A model generated the notes under the pieces. That model did not search any database, was not told the origin of the DNA, and worked only from the letters and a program-made list of their open reading frames with translations. A stretch of DNA of 54,190 nt, from IMG/VR virus record IMGVR_UViG_3300003267_000167, positions 1 to 54,190 of that record. One strand, written 5' to 3'. How positions within the stretch are numbered: the first letter of the stretch is position 1; the number at the start of each line of letters is the position of its first letter. Shown here piece by piece: positions 18,498 to 41,854 of the stretch. The position numbers were made by a program, and so were the translations under genes. The stretch is from a virus.

Positions 18498-19214
18498 ATG
18501 ACCAACGTGCAGAACGCATTTAAGCACAACCGGGCGCGGCAAAACGTTATCGTCGGCGGCGGGTTGATACTCGTTTGTATCACCCTTTTAAGCTGCGTCT
18601 CTTCGTTCATGATCTATCGGGAGGGCTTTTCAGATACGCCCTTCTTTATTCAAAATATCCTCAGTCTCTTCGCGGTCCTAGTGGTAGAAGGCGCGTTTAT
18701 TTGGCTGGTTTACGGCTTCACGCGCGCCTTTTCGAGCTTTATGGAGCGGATCATCAGCCTGGCCGGCATGGTCTTTTTGGTCTCCGTGATGCTCACCAAT
18801 ATCGTCACACATTTTATGATGGTGAAACATTTGGCGCTGTCCACGTTCCAACAGGCATGGCTGAGTTGGGGCGCGGTTTCCGTCTTTATCGGCGTCCTGA
18901 TTTTCGTCCTGTTAATCACGCTGGCGGATCCGGTTTCGCGGCTAATCCGGCTTGAGCTTCGCTACCAAGGCCGACAGCAAGAGACGATCATTCAGGCCAA
19001 GACGGAGGGCTTAAATTCCGAGCATGTGCAACTGGCGATGATCGAACGGGCAGAGATCGAAGCGAAGCAATTAGCGGATCGGATCGTTGGCGGTGAGACT
19101 CAACTTACGCCGCGAAAGCGCGTGCGAATGATTCAACAAGAGCCTTTGGAAAACTTTGATGCCGGCGACGGGGAGAAACCGAAGGGAAAAGGGCGCGGCC
19201 GGAGTTGGATTTAA
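18498..19214 (+). CDS. four-helix membrane protein of unknown function
   Basis: A 238-residue protein with four predicted membrane helices (residues about 18-39, 54-75, 84-106 and 124-143) and a cytosolic C-terminal half that is Gln/Glu/Arg-rich and ends in a basic tail (GKGRGRSW). It starts at ATG 18498 behind TGGAGGCAAC and is the first gene after a promoter and structured leader. Position after the tail operon is where lysis genes often lie, so a holin-like role is possible, but it is longer than typical holins. Unknown. Confidence 0.75.
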   Translation: MTNVQNAFKHNRARQNVIVGGGLILVCITLLSCVSSFMIYREGFSDTPFFIQNILSLFAVLVVEGAFIWLVYGFTRAFSSFMERIISLAGMVFLVSVMLTNIVTHFMMVKHLALSTFQQAWLSWGAVSVFIGVLIFVLLITLADPVSRLIRLELRYQGRQQETIIQAKTEGLNSEHVQLAMIERAEIEAKQLADRIVGGETQLTPRKRVRMIQQEPLENFDAGDGEKPKGKGRGRSWI

Positions 19215-21767: not shown

Positions 21768-22298
21768 ATGAAAGAAAGACTAAGGAAGATTTACGAACTA
21801 GCAACGCGCGGCGTAGGAGGCGAGCGTGAGAACGCTCAACGATTACTTGAGCGGCTTTTGGCGGAGCACAACTTAACTATTGAAGACCTGGCCGGCGACG
21901 AAAAGAAGCTTTATTACTTCCGATATTCAGAGGGATGGGAAAAGAAGTTAATACTTCAGATTGTGGCCAAGGTAACAAACGTAAGCACTATTGAACCTTG
22001 GGTGCGTAAGGGCTGGCGAAAAGCGCGCGGCTTTGAACTGACGGCGGCGGAGTTTGCGGAGTGCCAACTACTGCTTGAAGAGTACCGCAAGGCATACCGG
22101 AAAGAGTTGGAACGCCTTTTCAGTGCATTCGTTCAACGTAACCGGATTTTTGGGGATGGCAAGGCCGACGAATCCAACACGACGCCGGAGCAATGGGCGG
22201 AGCTTGAGAAAGTCCTAGCGATGGCGCGCAGCCTTGATGTGGTCCCGATACCGCGCAAGCGCCTTGTAGAAGGCATATCAGAGGGGGTAGAGATATGA
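21768..22298 (+). CDS. DUF2786-like protein
   Basis: A 176-residue protein whose N-terminus matches the DUF2786 pattern: KIYELATRGVGGERENAQ, then LLERLLAEHNLTIEDL. Proteins with this helix-rich domain are common in phages and mobile elements, and their function is unknown. Residues 50-130 continue with a second helical domain (WEKKLILQIVAKV, ECQLLLEEYRKAYRKELE). It starts behind TTAGGAGGCCAAAC and overlaps the helicase start by 4 bases, which suggests a joint role with it. Confidence 0.65.
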   Translation: MKERLRKIYELATRGVGGERENAQRLLERLLAEHNLTIEDLAGDEKKLYYFRYSEGWEKKLILQIVAKVTNVSTIEPWVRKGWRKARGFELTAAEFAECQLLLEEYRKAYRKELERLFSAFVQRNRIFGDGKADESNTTPEQWAELEKVLAMARSLDVVPIPRKRLVEGISEGVEI

Positions 22299-25200
22299 AT
22301 AACACATGGCAACCAATTATGGCCGCGCTTCGCTATCTCGCCGGCCTTTGCGACGGCGCGCAGTCGGAAGACGGCCAAGGCTTCAATAAACCCGACTCTT
22401 TGCGCTGCAAACGTTGGGCGGCGCTCGAAAGCTTGAACGAACGCCAGGCGCGCGACGCTTACGACCGTCTCCGCAAGTACACGGCGCAGCTTGACGCGGG
22501 CGGGATAGACTTCACCAAGCTGCCCGTGCCGCCAAACGAGCGGTTGCAGGCGTCGGACCTGATACGGCCGAACGCCGAACAGTCCAAGCGGCGGGACACG
22601 GACGCCCGCGCGATCCGGGCCGGGAAAGACGCCGAAGGGGATCACTTTCAACTTTCCTGGCCGTATTCCGACGTTGCCGCATTGCTTGAGCCGATGAAAG
22701 ACCATTTCACGGCGCGGCGGTACGTGCAGCAACCCTACAAGCATTGGCGCGTACCGGCCGACTACCGCGCCGCGCGCCTGATGGAGTTCGGCGTTGCGTA
22801 TGACTTTGAAATTTCGCCGGAGGCGTGCGCCTTGTTCGACTCCATCACCATCCCTGACGCCTTGCCCGAAGGCGAAAAGCCCAAACACCCGGACCGCATC
22901 ATCAAGCGCGATCTCTTTCGCCCGGAGCGCAAAGGGAAAGCGCCGAAAGAGGGCATCGGCATTTATTTCGATTACGTGCCGGCGATTCACGCGGCCGTCA
23001 AGGAAATGGTCTCGCCGCAGTATTTCGGCGAAGGCGCGCGGCATTGGGTCGTCTCGCTCGATTCCGCCGCCGCCGTCGCCAAGCTCGCGGCGGAGTTCGG
23101 TTTCAACGTCGAACCGGAGACCCGCGCACTACTCGAAAGCGAAGCCGCCAAGGCGGACGCGGCCGCCAGCCTGGCCGCCAAGCGAAAGGCCGTCTTGATG
23201 AAGGCGGCCGAAGATATCCCGCGCGGCAACTTCGGCGGCAAAACGCCGCGCGATTATCAGGCGGCGGGCGTCAGTCGGATGCTTGAGGCCGGGCGCAGCA
23301 TCCTGGCCGACGATATGGGGCTGGGGAAAGGTCAACCCGCAAGCGGCAAAGTTGCGACGCCTAACGGCTGGCAGATGATTGGTACTCTTCGGCCGGGGGA
23401 TTATGTTATCGGGTCAGATGGCAAGCCTGTTAGTGTGCGCGCCGTTTACTTGCGCGGCGTACTACCAATCTTCAAAGTAACTTTTTCGGATGGCTCAAGC
23501 TTAGATGTAGACGCCGACCATATTTGGACCGTCAAGGACCACAACACACACCATAGGGGCGGAGATTGGTACACGATGACCACACGCGAGCTTATGCTAA
23601 AGGGTCTAAAGGATGGCAACGGTAACAGGAAATACCGTATCCCGATGGTAAAGCCCGTAATCTTTGACCATCAGGACTTACCTTTTGATCCGTACCTAAT
23701 GGGCGTCTTCTTAGGGGATGGAAGCTTTAGCAGCGGGTACAACTTCAACATCTGTACCGGAGATGAAGCCGTACCCGCCGAATGCATGCGCGTGATGCCG
23801 CGCGGCGCGAGTCTTGAAAGGATCGAACCGAAAGAGCGCGCTGTCTATTGGAAGCTTCGCGGATTTTCGCGGCCTCTCTTTGAATCGCTTGGGCTGCTAG
23901 GCTCAAAGGCTGAAACCAAGCAAATTCCCTGGCAATACATGCACGGATCGCCCGACCAAAGACTAGCCCTGTTACAAGGCTTGATGGATACAGACGGCAC
24001 GGCGAGCTTAGATGGTTGCGTGTCTTTTTCGTCGGCAAGCTCAAAGCTCGCGCGTGGTGTTATTGAGTTAGTTCAATCTCTCGGAGGTACGGCGCGGCTT
24101 AGCCTGAAACGTGCGCCAAAGTTTAGCTATAAGGGCGAACAGAAAACCGGGCAACCGTCATGGATCGTAACGCTAGCAATGCCGGAGAGGATGAATCCTT
24201 TTCGGGCTTTTGCGTCTCGCTATAAAGAGCGGACGAAATACCCGCCGCAACGGCTAATCGAATCCATTGAAGCTTACGGCCAAGATGAGGTTGTATGTAT
24301 TTCGGTTGACGCGCCCGACTCGCTTTATGTAGCAGAGAGCTACATCGTTACCCACAACACGTTTGAGGGCATGCTGTGGGCAAGGTGCTACCAACGGGCG
24401 TTCGGCGCGCACGTCTTCATCGTCTGCCCGGTTGCCCTAATGGGCGGATGGATCGAAGAGGCGGCCGCGTGTCACGTCCGGGCGGAGGTTTATTCATGGG
24501 CGAAAGTGCCGCCGCCGCCTTCGTCGCCCTTCGTGCTGATATGCGACGAAGCCCACTATGCACAGTCCATTAAAAGCCAGCGAACGCAAGCCGTCCTAGA
24601 GCTATCGGAAAGCGAGCATTGCCTTGGGGTCGTCATGGCGACGGGGACGCCCATGCGCGGCGGCCGGCCGGTTAATATCTTCCCGCTACTGAAGGCGGTC
24701 AAACACCCCTTGGCGCGCAATAAGTCCAAGTTTGAGGAAAGATACTGCGCGGCGCATCAACGCACGGTCCGCACGGGCGGCCGGACGGTCAACATTTGGG
24801 ACACGACCGGCGCGGCGCACCTTGACGAATTGATGCGGGAGATTGCGCCGCAATTCCTACGCCGGACGAAAGAGCAAGTGTTGAAAGACTTGCCGGCAAA
24901 AACGATCCTGCCCAAACCCGTGGACGTGGACGCCGAAGGCATGGCGATTTATCAGGAAGCTTTCAATAAAGCCCAAGCGCAATATAACGACCGGCTGGCA
25001 AAGGGCGAAATCAAGGAAGGCGCGGAGGCGCTTGTCTTATTGACGCACCTAAAACGCGCGGCCGCGCTCGCGATGGTCAAACCGGCGATTGACCTGGCGG
25101 ACGAAGTAATAGAGCAAAAGCGCAAGGTCTTGATGTACTCGGAATACCCGGAGGTCTGTGAAAAGATCGCGGCGCATTACCGATCGCAAGGCGTCGGCGC

Positions 25201-25630
25201 GGAAGTCCTAACCGGCCAGGTAAAGGCGGAGGACCGCGACACGTCGGTTAAACGTTTCCAGTTTGGCGCGTCGCGCGTCTTTTGTCTGACGAAGGCCGGG
25301 GGCGTCGGCCTGACGTTGACGGCCGCGTCTGACGCTTTCTTAGTAGATCAGCCTTGGATGTGGGATGACGTCGCGCAGATCGTTGACCGGCTACACCGTA
25401 AGGATGCCGTCATGGCGGAGCGGATCGAAGCCGGCCAGGCCATGCCGGTCAACGCCTATTTACTGTCCGGCTTTGAAGTCAATCAGAAAATTCAAGCGCG
25501 GCTTTTTGACCAACGGCGGGCGCTTGGGAAGGTCATGGCCGGCGACCGGCGCACGATGCGGGGCGTTCAAAGCGTCCACGATATAGCCAAGGAAATCGCG
25601 CATGAACTATTCGGAGGGCAAAACAAATGA
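22295..25630 (+). CDS. SNF2-type helicase with HARP-like modules, interrupted by an intein
   Basis: A 1111-residue precursor. Residues about 110-290 hold two HARP-like modules ('HFQLSWPY...KHWRVP' and 'GIYFDYVP...HWVVSL'), as in SMARCAL1-type annealing helicases. The Walker A motif GLGK-T is split by an intein (residues 346-688). After it come VLICDEAHY (motif II), MATGTPMRGG (III), and C-terminal helicase motifs TKAGGVGLTLTAA and QIVDRLHR. The mature helicase would be 768 residues; without splicing it lacks the Walker A Thr in place. SNF2/HARP enzymes remodel forks or anneal strands, consistent with nearby ERF and RusA recombination genes. Confidence 0.88.
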   Translation: MNNTWQPIMAALRYLAGLCDGAQSEDGQGFNKPDSLRCKRWAALESLNERQARDAYDRLRKYTAQLDAGGIDFTKLPVPPNERLQASDLIRPNAEQSKRRDTDARAIRAGKDAEGDHFQLSWPYSDVAALLEPMKDHFTARRYVQQPYKHWRVPADYRAARLMEFGVAYDFEISPEACALFDSITIPDALPEGEKPKHPDRIIKRDLFRPERKGKAPKEGIGIYFDYVPAIHAAVKEMVSPQYFGEGARHWVVSLDSAAAVAKLAAEFGFNVEPETRALLESEAAKADAAASLAAKRKAVLMKAAEDIPRGNFGGKTPRDYQAAGVSRMLEAGRSILADDMGLGKGQPASGKVATPNGWQMIGTLRPGDYVIGSDGKPVSVRAVYLRGVLPIFKVTFSDGSSLDVDADHIWTVKDHNTHHRGGDWYTMTTRELMLKGLKDGNGNRKYRIPMVKPVIFDHQDLPFDPYLMGVFLGDGSFSSGYNFNICTGDEAVPAECMRVMPRGASLERIEPKERAVYWKLRGFSRPLFESLGLLGSKAETKQIPWQYMHGSPDQRLALLQGLMDTDGTASLDGCVSFSSASSKLARGVIELVQSLGGTARLSLKRAPKFSYKGEQKTGQPSWIVTLAMPERMNPFRAFASRYKERTKYPPQRLIESIEAYGQDEVVCISVDAPDSLYVAESYIVTHNTFEGMLWARCYQRAFGAHVFIVCPVALMGGWIEEAAACHVRAEVYSWAKVPPPPSSPFVLICDEAHYAQSIKSQRTQAVLELSESEHCLGVVMATGTPMRGGRPVNIFPLLKAVKHPLARNKSKFEERYCAAHQRTVRTGGRTVNIWDTTGAAHLDELMREIAPQFLRRTKEQVLKDLPAKTILPKPVDVDAEGMAIYQEAFNKAQAQYNDRLAKGEIKEGAEALVLLTHLKRAAALAMVKPAIDLADEVIEQKRKVLMYSEYPEVCEKIAAHYRSQGVGAEVLTGQVKAEDRDTSVKRFQFGASRVFCLTKAGGVGLTLTAASDAFLVDQPWMWDDVAQIVDRLHRKDAVMAERIEAGQAMPVNAYLLSGFEVNQKIQARLFDQRRALGKVMAGDRRTMRGVQSVHDIAKEIAHELFGGQNK
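23330..24358 (+). other. class 3 LAGLIDADG intein in the helicase Walker A motif
   Basis: A 343-residue in-frame insertion between Lys345 and Thr689 of the helicase. It starts with Gly (GQPASGKVATPNGW), not Cys or Ser. Block B has the sequence ADHIWTV with its Trp, block F has DEVVCISVDAPDSLYVAESY with its Cys, and the insert ends VTHN before extein Thr: the WCT set that defines class 3 inteins. Two LAGLIDADG motifs are present (LMGVFLGDG and LLQGLMDTDG), so a homing endonuclease domain is included. Codon use in the insert is more A/T-rich than in the flanks, which suggests later arrival. Confidence 0.88.
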
Positions 25631-36071: not shown

Positions 36072-36113
36072 GACGGCCGGCATCAATCCTGTGTATGCCG
36101 GCCGTCGCTTTAT
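36072..36113 (+). terminator. strong terminator opening the cargo cassette boundary
   Basis: GACGGCCGGCAT (36072-36083) pairs perfectly with ATGCCGGCCGTC (36095-36106), followed by GCTTTATT. It separates the replication/early region from the genes beginning at 36236. Confidence 0.75.
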
Positions 36114-36141
36114 TAAAAGCCGGCCGCGCCATTGGCCACGC

Positions 36142-36171
36142 TGGCAACAGTCCCCACAAATCCAGTAGACT
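36142..36171 (+). promoter_or_regulatory. candidate promoter of the cargo cassette
   Basis: TAGACT (36166-36171) resembles the -10 boxes at 18327, 28541 and 41133. At the usual 18-base spacing the -35 is only TGGCAA (36142-36147), so this is weak. The spacer does not contain the CCTTGGCG box. Confidence 0.4.
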
Positions 36172-36235
36172 ACCCGCGGCCATGCGACTCTCTACGCCGG
36201 CCGCAATCGTGCCCCCACTAACACGAGACCGACAC

Positions 36236-36904
36236 ATGGACCGGCTTAACTCTGTGAAACCCTCAAGGCAAGAATCCTTGTTCACGTTGGGCGCGATCGT
36301 CTTGGCTGTGCTTTTAGTGGAGCTTGGCGCGATAGCGATCTCCGCCGATGGCTACATGCCGCATGGCATGTGTTACCTGTGGGAGCCGCGCATGATCGCG
36401 TTGCACCTGGCCGCGGACCTGACGATATGCATGGCTTATTACGCAATCCCCTTCGTCCTGTGGCGATTCATCCGACGCCAGCGCGGGCATGCGGTCAATT
36501 GGATAATCGGTTGCTTCGCCGGATTCATCCTGTTATGTGGGACGACTCACTTAATAGCCTGCGTCACCATCTGGCACCCGTGGTACTGGTTTGACGGCGC
36601 GGTCAAGACGGCGACCGCCATTTTCAGCGTCGCGACGCTGGCGCTACTTTGGCGGATCACCCGGCGGGCGAAACCCTTGCCCGACGTGGAAGAGATTTAC
36701 CGGACGAACGCGGAACTAAGAAGGCGGATCGAACGGTTGCGCGCGACGTACCCGGAGGACCGCGGCATTTTGGAAGAGGACAAGGCGGCCGAAGTGTTGA
36801 GCGGGGCGCATCAGCTTTTAGACGATTACGCCTCTTTGGTCTCCGCGCTACGCGGCCATCCGAAGCCGGCGCAAGTCGGGAAACCCGCGGAGGACGCGCC
36901 TTGA
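36236..36904 (+). CDS. ethylene-receptor-like (ETR1-type) membrane sensor domain without kinase
   Basis: A 222-residue protein with four membrane helices (about 16-36, 54-76, 89-110, 121-139). The sequence PHGMCYLWEP, then 'LHLAADLTICMAYYAIP', 'FAGFILLCGTTHLI' and 'IWHPWYWFDGAVKTATAIFS' follows the ETR1/bacterial ethylene-binding domain closely. The copper-ligand pair corresponds to Cys101 and His105 (CGTTH) and the conserved Asp to Asp61. A coiled coil (about 150-205) follows, but no histidine-kinase or GAF domain. Start ATG 36236 is preferred; ATG 36182 is an alternative. A sensor, a decoy or an inhibitor of host receptor kinases are all possible; ligand binding is inference. Confidence 0.82.
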   Translation: MDRLNSVKPSRQESLFTLGAIVLAVLLVELGAIAISADGYMPHGMCYLWEPRMIALHLAADLTICMAYYAIPFVLWRFIRRQRGHAVNWIIGCFAGFILLCGTTHLIACVTIWHPWYWFDGAVKTATAIFSVATLALLWRITRRAKPLPDVEEIYRTNAELRRRIERLRATYPEDRGILEEDKAAEVLSGAHQLLDDYASLVSALRGHPKPAQVGKPAEDAP

Positions 36905-37395
36905 GCGGATGGCAGCAAGTCCTAGCGGCGATACTTTCCTCCGGCGTCGTTTCGGGCGTGGTCGGCCTCCTATTCGGCCGGAAGCTTGAGGCCGCCAAGG
37001 CGGATAAAGAGCGGGCGGCGGCGGAGGTTGACCGCGCCAACGCGCAGAACGCTGAAGCCAAGACCATTACCGAACTAATGGCCGCCTTCAAGCAGACGAT
37101 GGAAATGGCGCGGGAGTCCGACCAACGCCACCGGGAGACCCTTTTAAAACTGAGCGAGGCCGAAGCCACCCTGGCCGCCCGCGATTCTGTCATTGCCAAC
37201 TTGCGGCGAGACCAGGCGCTTTTAAAAGGGGACACGACGGAGCTACGGGCGGAAGTTACGGGCGTCGCGCTACAGTGCAGCGACCTGGCCGAACAGTGTA
37301 AAAAGATTTTGCGGAAACTGGACAACATCGAGCATGCGGCCGACGCGAGCGGCGCGCACGTCACCCCAACCCCTAACCCTTCGGAGAAGTCATGA
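36901..37395 (+). CDS. membrane-anchored coiled-coil protein
   Basis: A 164-residue protein starting with TTG 36901 (TTGA overlap with the ETR1-like gene). One membrane helix (residues about 7-25, [20 protein letters not shown]) leads into a long coiled coil (about 30-145). The coupling suggests a joint function with the sensor-like protein, perhaps through coiled coils. The shape also fits phage spanin or envelope proteins. It ends in a Pro/Asn-rich tail. Confidence 0.6.
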
Positions 37396-39317
37396 GCATT
37401 TCACGTCACCATTTCAGAGTTAGCGAACCGATTGCCGCCTTGGCGTCTTTGGTCTTTGGCCTGTGCGCCTTGGCGATTATCGGCCGGATGGTTTACCCGG
37501 CCGCGGCGCAAGGCCAACCGCAGACCGTCACGTTACAACCGGGTCAAACCCTCATGGTTAAATGCAACGGGCAGCAAGCGGCGGCGGAGTCCGTTGATAA
37601 ATTTAACATGCGGAATAAGTGCGGACCCGGACCGACGCCGACGCCCACACCAACGCCAACCCCAACCCCGAAACCGACACCAACGCCGACGCCGACGCTG
37701 ACACCAACCCCAACCCCAACGCCCGGACCGACGCCGACGCCAACGCCGTCAAACGGCGGCTTGCCGGCACCTTTAAGTCAGTTTGTAGATACGGCCTGGC
37801 CGACCAATCAAACGGGGGTCGTCCGAAAGATTTTGCCGGGCGGGGACTTTCAACAGGCGTTGCAAGACTGCCAGCCGGGCGACGATATAGAACTTGACGT
37901 TTCGGGCGTGTGGACGGGTAACTTTACATTCCCCGCGAAGGCCAACCCGAATAACCAATGGGTCATTATCCGGGCAAGTAACGTGACCGCCACGACCGCC
38001 GCCGCGGGCGCGGTGACGGCCGCCAGGGCGGGGAAGGGCAAGGCGCGGAAAGTGGTCTATTACCGGCCGGCGAAGGGGAAGGCGGCCGCCCGGACGGGCA
38101 AGGCGGTTGCCGCCTTCAAGTCTGCCGGCCAGCGCGTGACGCCGGGCGCGCAAAGCATGCCGGTCATTCAATCGCCCAACGTTTCGGGCGCGTTCTTTAT
38201 GTCCGAAAATTCCGGCTACGTCCGCCTTGTCGGCCTTGAAATGACGTTTACGCCGGCCGCCGCCGCGGACGCGCCCGGCGGTTTTACCGTGTGGCGCGTG
38301 TTGCAACTTGGTTCAACCGACACGACCGACGCGGCGAAAGTGCCGCATCACATCACGGTTGACCGATGTTACATTCACGGGTTGCCGACTAAAAACTTAC
38401 GCCGCGGCATTGAACTTAATAGCAACTGGACGGCGGTAATAGATTCGCAAATCCGTGAGGTCCATGAGGTCGGCGCGGACAATCAGGCCATAGGCGGTTG
38501 GAACGGCGCGGGGCCGTACAAGATCGTTAATAACTATCTCGAAAGCGGCGGGGAGATCGTCATGCTTGGCGGGTCGGACCCGAAGATTGCGAACCAACTG
38601 CCGCGCGATATTGAGGTCCGGCGCAACACGATAACGCGGCCGACCGCCTGGAAGACGGGCGCGATACATTGGGAGGTCAAAAACCTTTTCGAGGTAAAGC
38701 ATGGCATACGCTGGCTAGTGGACGGTAACACCTTCGCGAATAATTGGACCGACGCCCAGGACGGTTACGGGATTTTGTTACGATCCATGAACCAAGACGG
38801 CGGCGAAACATGGTCAATCTCAACGGACATAACTTTTACGAATAATACAATCACGTCCGAAAACGGGATAAACCTGAACGGGTTGGACCCGTACCACCCG
38901 GCGAACCAAATGGCGCGGCTTTTGATCTCTAACAACGTTTGGAACGTGACGGGGACATGGCTAAAGGCGTCGGACTTCATCAATTGCACCTTTGACCATA
39001 ACACGATTAACAACGGCTATTCCGTCACGAACCTATACGCCGGCCTCAAGCCCAACATGCCGGGCGTTCGATATACTTTCAACATAGCCAACCGCTCCGG
39101 CGGTTATGGCATCTTTGGCGATGCGGTTGGAGAAGGAACGCCAGCCCTTACGACGTACTGGCCGCAAGCGGCCTTGGCGTCCAACGTCCTGACGGGATGC
39201 GCCAACACTGGCGGCCAGTGTAACGGCTACCCGTCCGGCTTTTACTCTTCGGCGTCGTCCGTGCCGGGCGTCGGCGCGGACACGCAGGCAATCACGGCGG
39301 CGCAAAACCGCCCATAA
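37392..39317 (+). CDS. secreted right-handed beta-helix protein with Pro-Thr linker
   Basis: A 641-residue exported protein. Residues 12-40 form a signal segment ending in AAAQG. Residues 79-120 are a PTPTPT linker coded by hexameric repeats (about 37626-37749). Residues about 130-600 have the repeating polar turns of a parallel beta-helix ([63 protein letters not shown]). These sequences resemble secreted beta-helix proteins of Acidobacteriota rather than phage tail spikes. A surface polysaccharide-acting enzyme is possible; catalytic residues were not identified. The ATG overlaps the previous stop. Confidence 0.75.
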
Positions 39318-39331
39318 CCCGAAAGGTTCAC

Positions 39332-40360
39332 ATGAAAATCAAAACACTCTCCATTTTGTTTCTCGCGGTCTCCGTCACTCTGATAATGCCGGCGCGGACG
39401 CTCGCGCAAGCTTGCGTCCCTCCGGCCTATCAGGGCTTTGCTAATTCCTGCAAGGGGATCAACGCGCGGTGGCTGAATAAAAACGCGGTCAATGACATTG
39501 CGTTTTTTAAGCTGTATTGGGCGGCGGACGGCAAATGCAGCGGGGCCGACAATCAGGGCGTCCCGTGTGATTCCCCCCTGGCGGTCTTGCCGGGATCGGC
39601 GACCAACGCCGGCCGGACCGACCTATACCCTGGCTTTTCGAGTGCCATCACGATCACGCAAACGCTCAACAACGGCCTATCGTGCGCGACGGCGAGCGCG
39701 GGCAGTGTGCCGCACACGTACCCGCCGGACCTTTGCCAAGGGGTCGGCAATCAGCCGCTAGGCGTGGTCAACGCGGCGAACTACCGGAGTCAGGGGACGC
39801 CGGACAGCATCGCGGCCGCCTTCGCGGCCAATATCGCCACCTTTACCGCCTTGGCGTCGGGCTTGCCGCTCCCCTTGAACGTCGGGGGCGTCACGGTCAC
39901 TGTAGACGGGGAACCGGCCGGCATTTTTTACGTGTCACCCGGCCAGGTAAACTTTCTTGTCCCCGCGGACCTGTCGGCCGGCCTGAAAGTGGTTAGGGTC
40001 GCCAACGCCTCCGGGCAGACCTTCACGGGCGAATACTACCTTGGCGCGCAAGCTCCGGGCGTATTCACGCGCGACTCAACGGGCGAAGGTCCGGCAAGTA
40101 TGGACGTCGGGCCGGGCGGCGCGTATATCAGCTTGTATCCTACCGGCATCAATTCGGCGGCCGTCACCAAGGCGGACATTTTTTTGAGGACGTCAACCGG
40201 GCGTTACCCGGCGCAATACCTTGAAACGCCGGACCCGTCACACCCGGCGCAATTCGTCGGCGCGCGTCAATTGAATTTCGTCAACGTCCCTCTGGACGGG
40301 CAGGCGGCATACCTTGAGGTCGCCGGCTTTACGTCCAATACGTTCACGCTTCGGAGGTAA
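39332..40360 (+). CDS. secreted protein with Solibacter-type C-terminal domain (TIGR03437-like)
   Basis: A 342-residue exported protein with a signal peptide (cut likely after ARTLAQA, residue 27). Residues about 145-250 match the acidobacterial domain I know as TIGR03437: VVNAANYRSQGTPDSIAAAF, 'LPLPLNVGGVTVTVDGEPAG', 'IFYVSPGQVNFLVPADLSAG' and AQAPGVF. The N-terminal part has six Cys, probably disulphides. The domain is typical of large paralogous secreted families in Solibacter and relatives, and is very unusual in a phage. It suggests capture of a host gene. Function is unknown; it starts behind GAAAGG, 14 bases after the beta-helix gene. Confidence 0.78.
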   Translation: MKIKTLSILFLAVSVTLIMPARTLAQACVPPAYQGFANSCKGINARWLNKNAVNDIAFFKLYWAADGKCSGADNQGVPCDSPLAVLPGSATNAGRTDLYPGFSSAITITQTLNNGLSCATASAGSVPHTYPPDLCQGVGNQPLGVVNAANYRSQGTPDSIAAAFAANIATFTALASGLPLPLNVGGVTVTVDGEPAGIFYVSPGQVNFLVPADLSAGLKVVRVANASGQTFTGEYYLGAQAPGVFTRDSTGEGPASMDVGPGGAYISLYPTGINSAAVTKADIFLRTSTGRYPAQYLETPDPSHPAQFVGARQLNFVNVPLDGQAAYLEVAGFTSNTFTLRR

Positions 40361-40361
40361 C

Positions 40362-40580
40362 ATGGACAGTCGGGACCGGGAAGCGATTGACATGGAAGTT
40401 TCCAAGATCGTCGCGATTGAATTGGAACTAAAAACCATTCCGGGGCGCATTCGCGACGGTCTTAACGGGCGAGACTTAGAAGACAAACTTCTAAGTCTCG
40501 CCCTGGCGATTCACAACACGGCGGACAATCTCAAAGGGTTGAGCCGCCCGGAGGATCAACATGCGAACGCAGCGGCTTAA
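40362..40580 (+). CDS. small acidic helical protein
   Basis: A 72-residue protein starting at ATG 40362 behind GGAGGTAAC, one base after the previous stop. It is helical (SKIVAIELELKTIPGRIRDG, 'EDKLLSLALAIHNTADNL'). The codons for its middle form a perfect 16-bp hairpin (40467-40503). It overlaps the lipoprotein gene by 20 bases. Function unknown. Confidence 0.55.
   Translation: MDSRDREAIDMEVSKIVAIELELKTIPGRIRDGLNGRDLEDKLLSLALAIHNTADNLKGLSRPEDQHANAAA
40467..40503. repeat. perfect 16-bp inverted repeat in coding sequence
   Basis: GGGCGAGACTTAGAAG (40467-40482) and CTTCTAAGTCTCGCCC (40488-40503) are exact complements around ACAAA. No T-tract follows, so it is not an intrinsic terminator. Such a stable hairpin inside a gene could be a recombination or protein-binding site, or an RNase III processing site. 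Confidence 0.85.
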
Positions 40581-41097
40581 ACGCTTCGGCGTTACTCTCT
40601 TCGTGGTCTTGTTCGGACTCTCGCAATCCGCTTGCGGCGGTCCGACGCTGGCCAGCATCGGGCGCTATATCGGGCCGGTCGGGCAGGGGTTTAACGACTA
40701 CCTTGACCAACTGAAGGCGGCCGGCGAGATCACACAGGAAAACTATGATAAGGCCAAAAACCTTAACTTGCCCGGCAAGGCTAAAGAGGTCGGCGACTAC
40801 CTACAGAGCTTGACCGTTATCAACGCCGGCAACCGGGACGAAGTGTTAGCGGTGATTGACGGCGGCTTGAAAGTCTTTCGGGACGTGTCCGGCCTAGTCA
40901 AGCCGGGGAGCGCGGCCGCCAAGGTCGTCTTATACCTGTCAACCGCCTTGTCCGTGGCGCGGGGCGTCCTGGCGGCCATGCCTGTCAAGCCGGCGTCTTT
41001 CTCGATGAGCGCGAAAGAGGAAGGGAAGCGGCCGGCGGACGTGAAAATTGACTTGCCGCCGCCGCCGCCGGAGGTTAAAAAATATCTTCCGAAATAG
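40561..41097 (+). CDS. putative lipoprotein
   Basis: A 178-residue protein with a short signal peptide ending LSQSAC (Cys25), a lipobox-like site although Gln at -3 is atypical. The mature part is helical (RYIGPVGQGFNDYLDQLKAA, 'NAGNRDEVLAVIDGGLKV') and ends in a proline run (PPPPPEVKKYLPK). It starts within the previous gene. It could be an envelope-attached phage protein such as an exclusion lipoprotein or an Rz1-like partner; not proven. Confidence 0.6.
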   Translation: MRTQRLKRFGVTLFVVLFGLSQSACGGPTLASIGRYIGPVGQGFNDYLDQLKAAGEITQENYDKAKNLNLPGKAKEVGDYLQSLTVINAGNRDEVLAVIDGGLKVFRDVSGLVKPGSAAAKVVLYLSTALSVARGVLAAMPVKPASFSMSAKEEGKRPADVKIDLPPPPPEVKKYLPK

Positions 41098-41108
41098 GCC
41101 GCCAGGGG

Positions 41109-41138
41109 TTGACGCCTTGGCGGACTCCCCTTTAGACT
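41109..41138 (+). promoter_or_regulatory. promoter with CCTTGGCGG box upstream of gene 41163
   Basis: TTGACG (41109-41114), an 18-base spacer and TAGACT (41133-41138). CCTTGGCGG begins immediately after the -35 box, so its phase differs from the copies at 20928 and 25851. Confidence 0.6.
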
Positions 41139-41162
41139 CCGGGCCGAAATGGAGGCGCGAAC

Positions 41163-41405
41163 ATGGCAAGCAAAGTGACGATTGTAATCGAGGGCGACAC
41201 GCCGGCCGACGCGGCGGCGATCGCCAACGCGCTACTTGACAACCCGAAGCTTGACGAAATCCAAGGCACGATTAACGACGTGTTAGCGGAGATCAAACGG
41301 CAGGGGTTGGACCAGTCGAAAATCAATGCGGTTTTCGACAAAGTAACCGCCAACGAGCAAAAGCTTGAAGGCGCACTAAACGCGGGCGAACCGTCCGACG
41401 TTTAA
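41163..41405 (+). CDS. small helical protein, related to the next gene
   Basis: An 80-residue protein behind TGGAGGCGCGAAC. Its C-terminus, INAVFDKVTANEQKLEGALN, parallels INAIFDKVLSERGKLEQAIT in the product of 41453, so the two probably share a domain after duplication. It is acidic and helical. Function unknown. Confidence 0.6.
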   Translation: MASKVTIVIEGDTPADAAAIANALLDNPKLDEIQGTINDVLAEIKRQGLDQSKINAVFDKVTANEQKLEGALNAGEPSDV

Positions 41406-41452
41406 CCGGGCCGCGACGGCGGACCCTTAACCGAAACCTTGGAGGTTATACA

Positions 41453-41758
41453 ATGGCCAGAGATCACGACGTTTCAGTAGACGAATTATTGCAGGCGGCG
41501 ACCGAAGCCGAAACCGTAGGGGACTCCGCGGTTGCCTTGGTGCAATCCCTCCGCGACCAAATTGCCGCATACACGAGCGGTCAGCAAATTTCGCCCGCGA
41601 CGCAGCAAGGAATCAACGCGATTTTTGACAAGGTTTTGTCAGAGCGCGGCAAGTTGGAACAGGCCATCACAGCCAACACGGACACGGGCGGCGGCGGTGA
41701 CACGGGCGGCGGCACTGGCGGCGGCGGTGACACTGGCGGCGGAACGCCGACGCCCTAG
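41453..41758 (+). CDS. small helical protein with Gly-rich tail, paralogue of 41163
   Basis: A 101-residue protein behind TTGGAGGTTATACA. Residues about 53-74 align with the C-terminus of the previous product. The last 28 residues are a GGG-D-T-rich tail coded by tandem (ggcggc)-type repeats and ending TPTP. It is the last gene before the terminator that closes the cassette. Confidence 0.6.
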   Translation: MARDHDVSVDELLQAATEAETVGDSAVALVQSLRDQIAAYTSGQQISPATQQGINAIFDKVLSERGKLEQAITANTDTGGGGDTGGGTGGGGDTGGGTPTP

Positions 41759-41783
41759 ACTTTTCCGGCGCTGTCTTGATAGC

Positions 41784-41854
41784 CCAAGGCACAAGCCTTG
41801 GTTCTCCTTATCTCGTTATCCGGCGGGGCGTCTAACCAGCGTCCCGCCTTTTTT
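41784..41854 (+). terminator. terminator closing the cargo cassette
   Basis: A first hairpin CCAAGGC-ACAA-GCCTTGG (41784-41801) precedes GGCGGGGCG (41822-41830) pairing with CGTCCCGCC (41840-41848) and six T. It ends 8 bases before the next gene's ATG, so that gene must depend on read-through or another promoter. Confidence 0.85.

Follow-up and report, generated by a model that had tools for sequence, protein, structure and literature searches.

Why would a phage carry the sensor domain of an ethylene receptor with no kinase attached, and what might it do there? The question comes from an IMG/VR virus record 54,190 bases long (IMGVR_UViG_3300003267_000167; the whole stretch is hereafter called the window), in which eight genes, all on the + strand, lie between two hairpins. 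The first of them, gene 1, encodes a stand-alone ETR1_N, the copper-dependent, ethylene-binding membrane domain of plants and bacteria; receptors for ethylene have been described in plants and fungi as well as in cyanobacteria and other bacteria. An earlier note, made from the sequence of this DNA, had taken the block for an independent module that changes the host surface or signalling. We find that the block is real and is better read as composite, with a phage-typical membrane pair (genes 1 and 2) accompanied by acidobacterial secreted cargo, a lipoprotein candidate and small genes. The explanation we favour, tentatively, is that the pair constitutes a phage split receptor acting late, on the timing of lysis, with the secreted cargo encoded behind it. 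The pair comprises:

36236-36904, + strand: gene 1, stand-alone ETR1_N membrane protein, 222 amino acids (PF25487 match)
36901-37395, + strand: gene 2, membrane-anchored coiled coil, 164 amino acids (TTG start overlapping the gene 1 stop)

The ETR1-like sensor domain proposed in the earlier note was borne out, as the gene 1 product matches Pfam ETR1_N (PF25487) at E 6e-30 and 105.7 bits (cut-off 27), with conserved PHGxC, AYYxIP and FIxxCGTTH stretches in the alignment. No kinase, GAF or PAS domain was matched in the Pfam scan of gene 1. On the ETR1 numbering, the protein has all seven residues tied to ethylene binding (D25, Y32, I35, P36, I62, C65 and H69) and keeps the output residues K91 and T94. 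In passages of one study, C65 and H69 form the copper site, I35, P36 and I62 are essential for ethylene binding, S98 is of moderate importance for binding, and T94 is needed for signalling and not for binding (PMC6586836). Passages of another give seven residues as required for ethylene binding, discuss D25 and K91, and report ethylene binding by AzoEtr1 residues 1-130 (PMC11819568). Because this short portion of AzoEtr1 suffices for binding, a free-standing ETR1_N can be functional.

An AlphaFold model of gene 1, built from 36 aligned sequences (mean pLDDT 76.5, pTM 0.61), places an additional helix at the N terminus (residues 11-34), ahead of three core helices (51-81, 86-113, 117-144) and a tail of two more. 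A fold search of the PDB with this model returned nothing at E 0.001 or better, a sequence search of solved structures gave no useful match, and the corresponding search of BFVD gave a single match (E 6e-4), to a 289-amino-acid protein of the same length as that of Maribacter phage Molly (see below). The best identity of gene 1 is 54%, to a Sulfopaludibacter protein, and in a tree of ETR1_N domains it groups with two other phage rows (L019 and L122; support 93/87) outside Acidobacteriota, a weak placement given the long branches. On account of its position among phage rows, recent capture from an acidobacterial kinase was rejected as the origin of gene 1.

We asked how widely such domains occur among phages. 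A tblastn search of a phages collection (50,697 phage records) with gene 1 retrieved Maribacter phages Molly and Colly alone, at 28% identity, with ETR1_N scores of 63.2 and 62.3 bits, and scans of viral contigs with the single window or Molly protein turned up Molly-type copies only. Further loci came from profile-type scans of IMG/VR, and every virus record used exceeds the Pfam cut-off. Once near-copies were merged (L020/L021, Molly/Colly/L024 and L129/L130/L131 each counting as one), 20 distinct phage records remained in which ETR1_N stands alone, among them the window and Molly. Another three phage records, excluded from the 20, hold ETR1_N fusions, two with kinases (L017 and L135) and one with a STAS domain (L026). 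The last (IMGVR_UViG_3300035445_000156, L026:9746-10804) is an ETR1_N-coiled coil-STAS fusion (PF25487 56 bits, STAS 48.7 bits) adjoining a terminase-like gene, and may likewise be an ethylene sensor of phages, with its own kind of output. None of the phage ETR1_N proteins tested had a PHROG match of note. The literature searched contained no paper joining 'ethylene-binding domain' with 'phage', and among the matches listed for 'ethylene receptor' and 'phage' no title names a phage-encoded receptor. It is near certain, as judged by sequence comparison, that gene 1 is a true member of the ETR1_N family and that this family recurs in phages.

Conservation differs between the binding and output positions of the domain. 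Across 22 virus rows (L026 and L135 included), C65, H69, F61, I62, G66 and S98 are invariant, Y32 is kept in 21 and I35 varies twice; position 25 is D in 13 rows and position 36 is P in 10. Of the output residues, K91 is kept in five of the 22 virus rows and T94 in nine, compared with 25 (the other three having Arg) and all of 28 cellular rows, respectively, these being the 28 of 80 cellular loci used for both the residue table and the tree. Phage and cell copies fall mostly apart in the tree (3 changes vs 15.9 in shuffles), and the phage copies may share a single origin, although long branches make the details of this tree unsafe. In comparison with the receptors ETR1, SynEtr1 and AzoEtr1, the window copy has the same domain, the C65/H69 site and all seven binding residues, but the phage gene lacks GAF, PAS and kinase domains and is paired with a membrane coiled coil, and K91 and T94 have drifted in most phage copies while being kept in the window.

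The coiled-coil membrane protein recognised in the earlier note is gene 2, in which a single membrane helix at the N terminus is followed by a charged helical tail. Its positive charges lie on the coil side, and the coil is thus predicted to be cytoplasmic by the positive-inside rule, as it is in 21 of 23 partner proteins from the phage loci. To count partners, a mechanical rule was used that asks for a small protein combining a charged coil with one or two membrane helices, called by hydropathy. It was applied to gene calls that simply take the longest open frame and become noisy where GC content is high, and its coil heuristic overlooks gene 2 of the window, which we recognised by eye. A partner stands next to ETR1_N in 15 of the 20 phage loci, compared with 27 of 178 more distant genes in the same loci (Fisher P 6e-8). 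The phage partners are 60-190 amino acids long, and their membrane helix is mostly N-terminal, or C-terminal in a few. Two candidate identities for gene 2 were rejected. A cytoplasmic coil speaks against a spanin, and hence against gene 2 being an i-spanin (Rz), as does the separate Rz/Rz1-like pair seen by eye upstream in L126, L129 and L132; XhlA was discarded since PF10779 exceeded its cut-off in none of the 20 records.

Cells offer a parallel to this arrangement. Most cellular ETR1_N loci are kinase fusions, with at least 150 residues following the domain in 74 of 80. In Acidobacteriota, ETR1_N occurs in 14 of 297 genomes, and 17 of its 18 matches lie in frames of at least 422 residues. 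The class to which a Maricaulis genome belongs gave 33 matches in 27 of 385 genomes, six of them in frames of fewer than 200 residues, of which five were looked at (L154-L157 and G017, locus L109). In two of the four fetched regions (L154:4991-7128 and L155:4993-7456), and additionally in L068:5977-8245, a short ETR1_N gene lies directly 5' of a gene for a separate membrane histidine kinase, and genes resembling response regulators were seen by eye near the pairs of L154 and L155. Cells therefore already have split receptors, and the phage pair resembles one with another effector: both have a short ETR1_N gene directly before a gene for a membrane protein, but the cellular partner is a HisKA/HATPase kinase and the phage partner a coiled coil.

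We propose the following mechanism. Gene 1 is a sensor domain freed from any kinase, and gene 2 a small inner-membrane protein with its coil predicted to face the cytoplasm, on the same side as the predicted tail helices of gene 1. The two products likely sit in a common membrane complex, a split receptor in which the kinase would have been replaced by a coiled-coil effector. The ETR1_N domain would bind Cu(I), and perhaps ethylene at least in copies like that of the window; ethylene may perhaps be the physiological ligand of the predicted sensor. Ligand, or the state of the membrane, would alter the coil, and the pair would act late at the inner membrane on lysis timing, a role that we consider plausible. 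In the window the pair heads a predicted operon that further encodes a lipoprotein candidate and two secreted proteins of acidobacterial families, the latter probably cargo of the moron type with a role outside the cell.

The suggested link to lysis derives from the neighbourhood of the pair in other phages, and here the view of the earlier note, in which no product of the block resembled a lysis protein, was not confirmed, as genes 1 and 2 recur beside endolysins elsewhere. In Molly and Colly, a membrane/coiled-coil gene is followed by ETR1_N, an N-acetylmuramoyl-L-alanine amidase (Amidase_3, E 3e-13) and then the terminase. The ETR1_N protein in these phages, annotated as a hypothetical protein, thus lies between a coiled-coil gene and an endolysin; it has 289 amino acids and a C-terminal part other than that of gene 1. 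In L126, L129 and L132, the order is a GH108 endolysin, the Rz/Rz1-like pair, one or more further genes, ETR1_N and two coiled-coil genes. The GH108 endolysins of these three records have a predicted C-terminal membrane helix with a weak Phage_holin_10 match, and the Rz/Rz1-like genes, which overlap each other, come after the endolysin gene. Overall, a peptidoglycan hydrolase over cut-off was found near ETR1_N in seven of the 20 records (Molly, L023, L028, L126, L127, L129 and L132), and sub-threshold matches in L019, L025 and L119 bring the total to 10. The occurrence of the pair in unrelated phages, often beside lysis genes, suggests that phages adopted the sensor for their own use.

Several results weigh against a split receptor that times lysis. 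The hydrolase count over cut-off is not a significant enrichment (4.5 of the 20 expected, P 0.11, under a uniform null that assumes one endolysin per record), it falls to five of 18 (P 0.27) when the L126 group is collapsed, and P 0.002 is reached solely when the sub-threshold matches are added. No endolysin was recognised among the window proteins scanned, and the cassettes of L129 and L132 encode another holin-like protein with two helices. The lysis reading is therefore plausible and not proven. The partner proteins share a similar architecture with low sequence similarity and no clear homology. As for the sensor, most loci were found by a pattern containing CGxxH, which inflates the conservation of C65 and H69, albeit both residues are present in all seven loci reached without it (the window, Molly, L018, L019, L119, L121 and L122). 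All seven ethylene-binding residues occur in just four of the 20 stand-alone phage copies (the window, L018, L019 and L027), so that perhaps only some of the phage copies bind ethylene. We regard as improbable the more ambitious version of this explanation, in which a split ethylene receptor would serve diverse phages as a ligand-gated switch for lysis, cued by Cu(I)-bound ethylene or by copper or redox conditions in the envelope.

Could the gene 1 product instead be a plain holin, with ETR1_N recruited as a ready-made three-helix bundle that forms the lysis hole and the copper-site residues serving folding and no sensing? Class I holins such as lambda S and pairs of the XhlA/XhlB type are comparable in combining a small polytopic membrane protein with a membrane coiled coil, here near endolysins in several phages, but the phage pair has no sequence match to either. 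The three-helix core is predicted to have its N terminus outside and its C terminus inside, as in lambda S, and the loss of K91 and T94 from most phage copies would also suit a protein that does not signal. Moreover, the Molly gene directly precedes the amidase, in a phage whose isolation paper gives the amidase alone among the lysis genes, with no holin in its table of them, and mentions proteins with 1-4 membrane helices near the lysins (PMC8776804). The window copy, however, has its extra N-terminal helix and two tail helices and retains both output residues, and L129 and L132 have the other holin-like gene already mentioned. No Pfam or PHROG holin family was matched over cut-off (the best for gene 1 was Phage_holin_3_6 at E 0.18 and 12.3 bits, against a cut-off of 28.4, with none in PHROGs), and Gordonia holins appeared in the fold search merely at E 1.6-1.9. 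We consider a plain holin unlikely, though it is the alternative that survives best.

To weigh the remaining alternatives, the rest of the block has to be considered, with its boundaries and cargo as follows:

36072-36106, + strand: upstream hairpin with a stem of 12 pairs, resembling a terminator but with a weak U-run (-26.3 kcal/mol, z -5.4)
37392-39317, + strand: gene 3, secreted protein, 641 amino acids (signal peptide, Acidobacteriota matches)
39332-40360, + strand: gene 4, secreted protein, 342 amino acids (TIGR03437 Solibacter C-terminal domain)
40362-40580, + strand: small protein, 72 amino acids (open frame with GGAGG upstream; no family match)
40561-41097, + strand: lipoprotein candidate, 178 amino acids, proline-rich C-terminus (sequence by eye; no family over cut-off)
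41163-41405, + strand: small acidic protein, 80 amino acids (24-residue stretch in common with the 41453-41758 product)
41453-41758, + strand: small protein, 101 amino acids, Gly/Thr-rich tail (24-residue stretch in common with the 41163-41405 product)
41822-41848, + strand: downstream intrinsic terminator (-20.2 kcal/mol, z -3.7, then UUUUUU)

Both hairpins fold better than shuffled sequence (0 of 200 shuffles fold as well as the first and 1 of 200 as well as the second), but of the two strong terminators claimed earlier the first has a poor U-run, its 3' flank being merely GCUUUAUU. Genes 1-6 of the block either overlap or are separated by no more than 14 bases, a spacing that argues for a single transcript; this operon-like packing and the 72-amino-acid gene were absent from the earlier note.

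The two signal-peptide proteins of acidobacterial style that the note described were upheld. Gene 4 matches TIGR03437 (Soli_cterm) with 85 bits against an NCBIfam cut-off of 29.05 and has Acidobacteriota matches; it resembles other TIGR03437 secreted proteins in carrying the domain over cut-off, but is here borne by a phage. Gene 3 encodes a signal peptide, a Pro/Thr-rich linker and a C-terminal domain of an acidobacterial secreted family, the C-terminal part reaching 45% identity with proteins of Acidobacteriota (E 1e-80). Relatives of gene 3 were found in 18 of 199 genomes, with some matches in the Pro/Thr-rich linker only, and two relatives adjoin glycosyltransferase-like genes (by eye). 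Its C-terminal domain is probably a beta-helix; Pfam Beta_helix reached merely E 0.65, and a single-sequence AlphaFold model was unusable (pLDDT 35). The membership of genes 3 and 4 in acidobacterial secreted families points to an acidobacterial host, and the two look like acquired, host-derived secreted cargo. Neither had a tblastn match in the phages collection. The lipoprotein candidate stands, with a lipobox that appears atypical by eye, and the small proteins described as paralogous share one stretch (13 of 24 residues identical, E 2e-6 in a single comparison) and nothing beyond it.

Host conversion or a superinfection block would treat the whole operon as moron cargo altering the host surface or signalling, for example by mixing with host ethylene receptors. 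As the earlier note observed, the products are mostly envelope or secreted proteins, two of them of host type, and the secreted and lipoprotein neighbours of the pair, with their acidobacterial families, fit this. Searches by terminase or head protease gave only distant relatives of the phage, and in L149 and L150 the block does not stand upstream of the terminase. Where the terminase is 56% identical, the 10 kb preceding it contain none of the block's genes, and ETR1_N is missing from that relative's whole record. However, ETR1_N and its partner occur in many phages and the secreted proteins are unmatched in the phages collection; the search turned up the whole block in no other phage, whereas ETR1_N recurs in 19 further phage records. 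Few host receptors would be there to jam, given the small number of Acidobacteriota genomes with ETR1_N. The envelope character of the block thus holds, but its reading as one independent host-modifying module unrelated to lysis is not supported, and we think it rather improbable that the whole operon serves host conversion. Least probable of all is copper or redox protection or handling, in which the pair would bind Cu(I) in the membrane for reasons unrelated to ethylene or lysis; this accords with copper ligands kept in every virus row and with the frequent loss of D25 and P36, but leaves the coiled-coil partner unexplained, and no genes for metal transport stood out by eye in the neighbourhood.

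Along the + strand, the window carries tail genes (0-18 kb), replication and recombination genes (22-35 kb), the block, small genes, and head genes from the terminase to the major head protein (46-53 kb). The block has a GC content of 0.600, compared with 0.589 for the whole window, and a foreign origin by composition was rejected on these values; in codon use, gene 4 deviates most (r 0.75). Elsewhere in the window, a 238-amino-acid protein with four predicted membrane helices, encoded directly after the tail fibre genes (18498-19214), is a possible holin. A helicase-like protein of 1111 amino acids (22295-25630) has split PHROG helicase matches and, by eye, an intein-like insert at about residues 340-690 with endonuclease-like motifs. 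The 208-amino-acid product of 34198-34824 matches phrog_15826 (unknown function) at E 1e-58 and has no Pfam match.

If the free domains bind Cu(I) or ethylene, they would represent a phage membrane sensor that could be assayed directly in Molly, an isolated and sequenced phage. If they bind neither, they would still make up a sequence-divergent family of phage membrane proteins, often near lysis genes and without a notable PHROG match. The phage copies, in which binding residues are kept and output residues have drifted, also amount to a natural experiment on receptor signalling. Were the ligand-gated lysis switch to prove true, the life cycles of phages in soil and sea would be steered by a hormone of plants or microbes.

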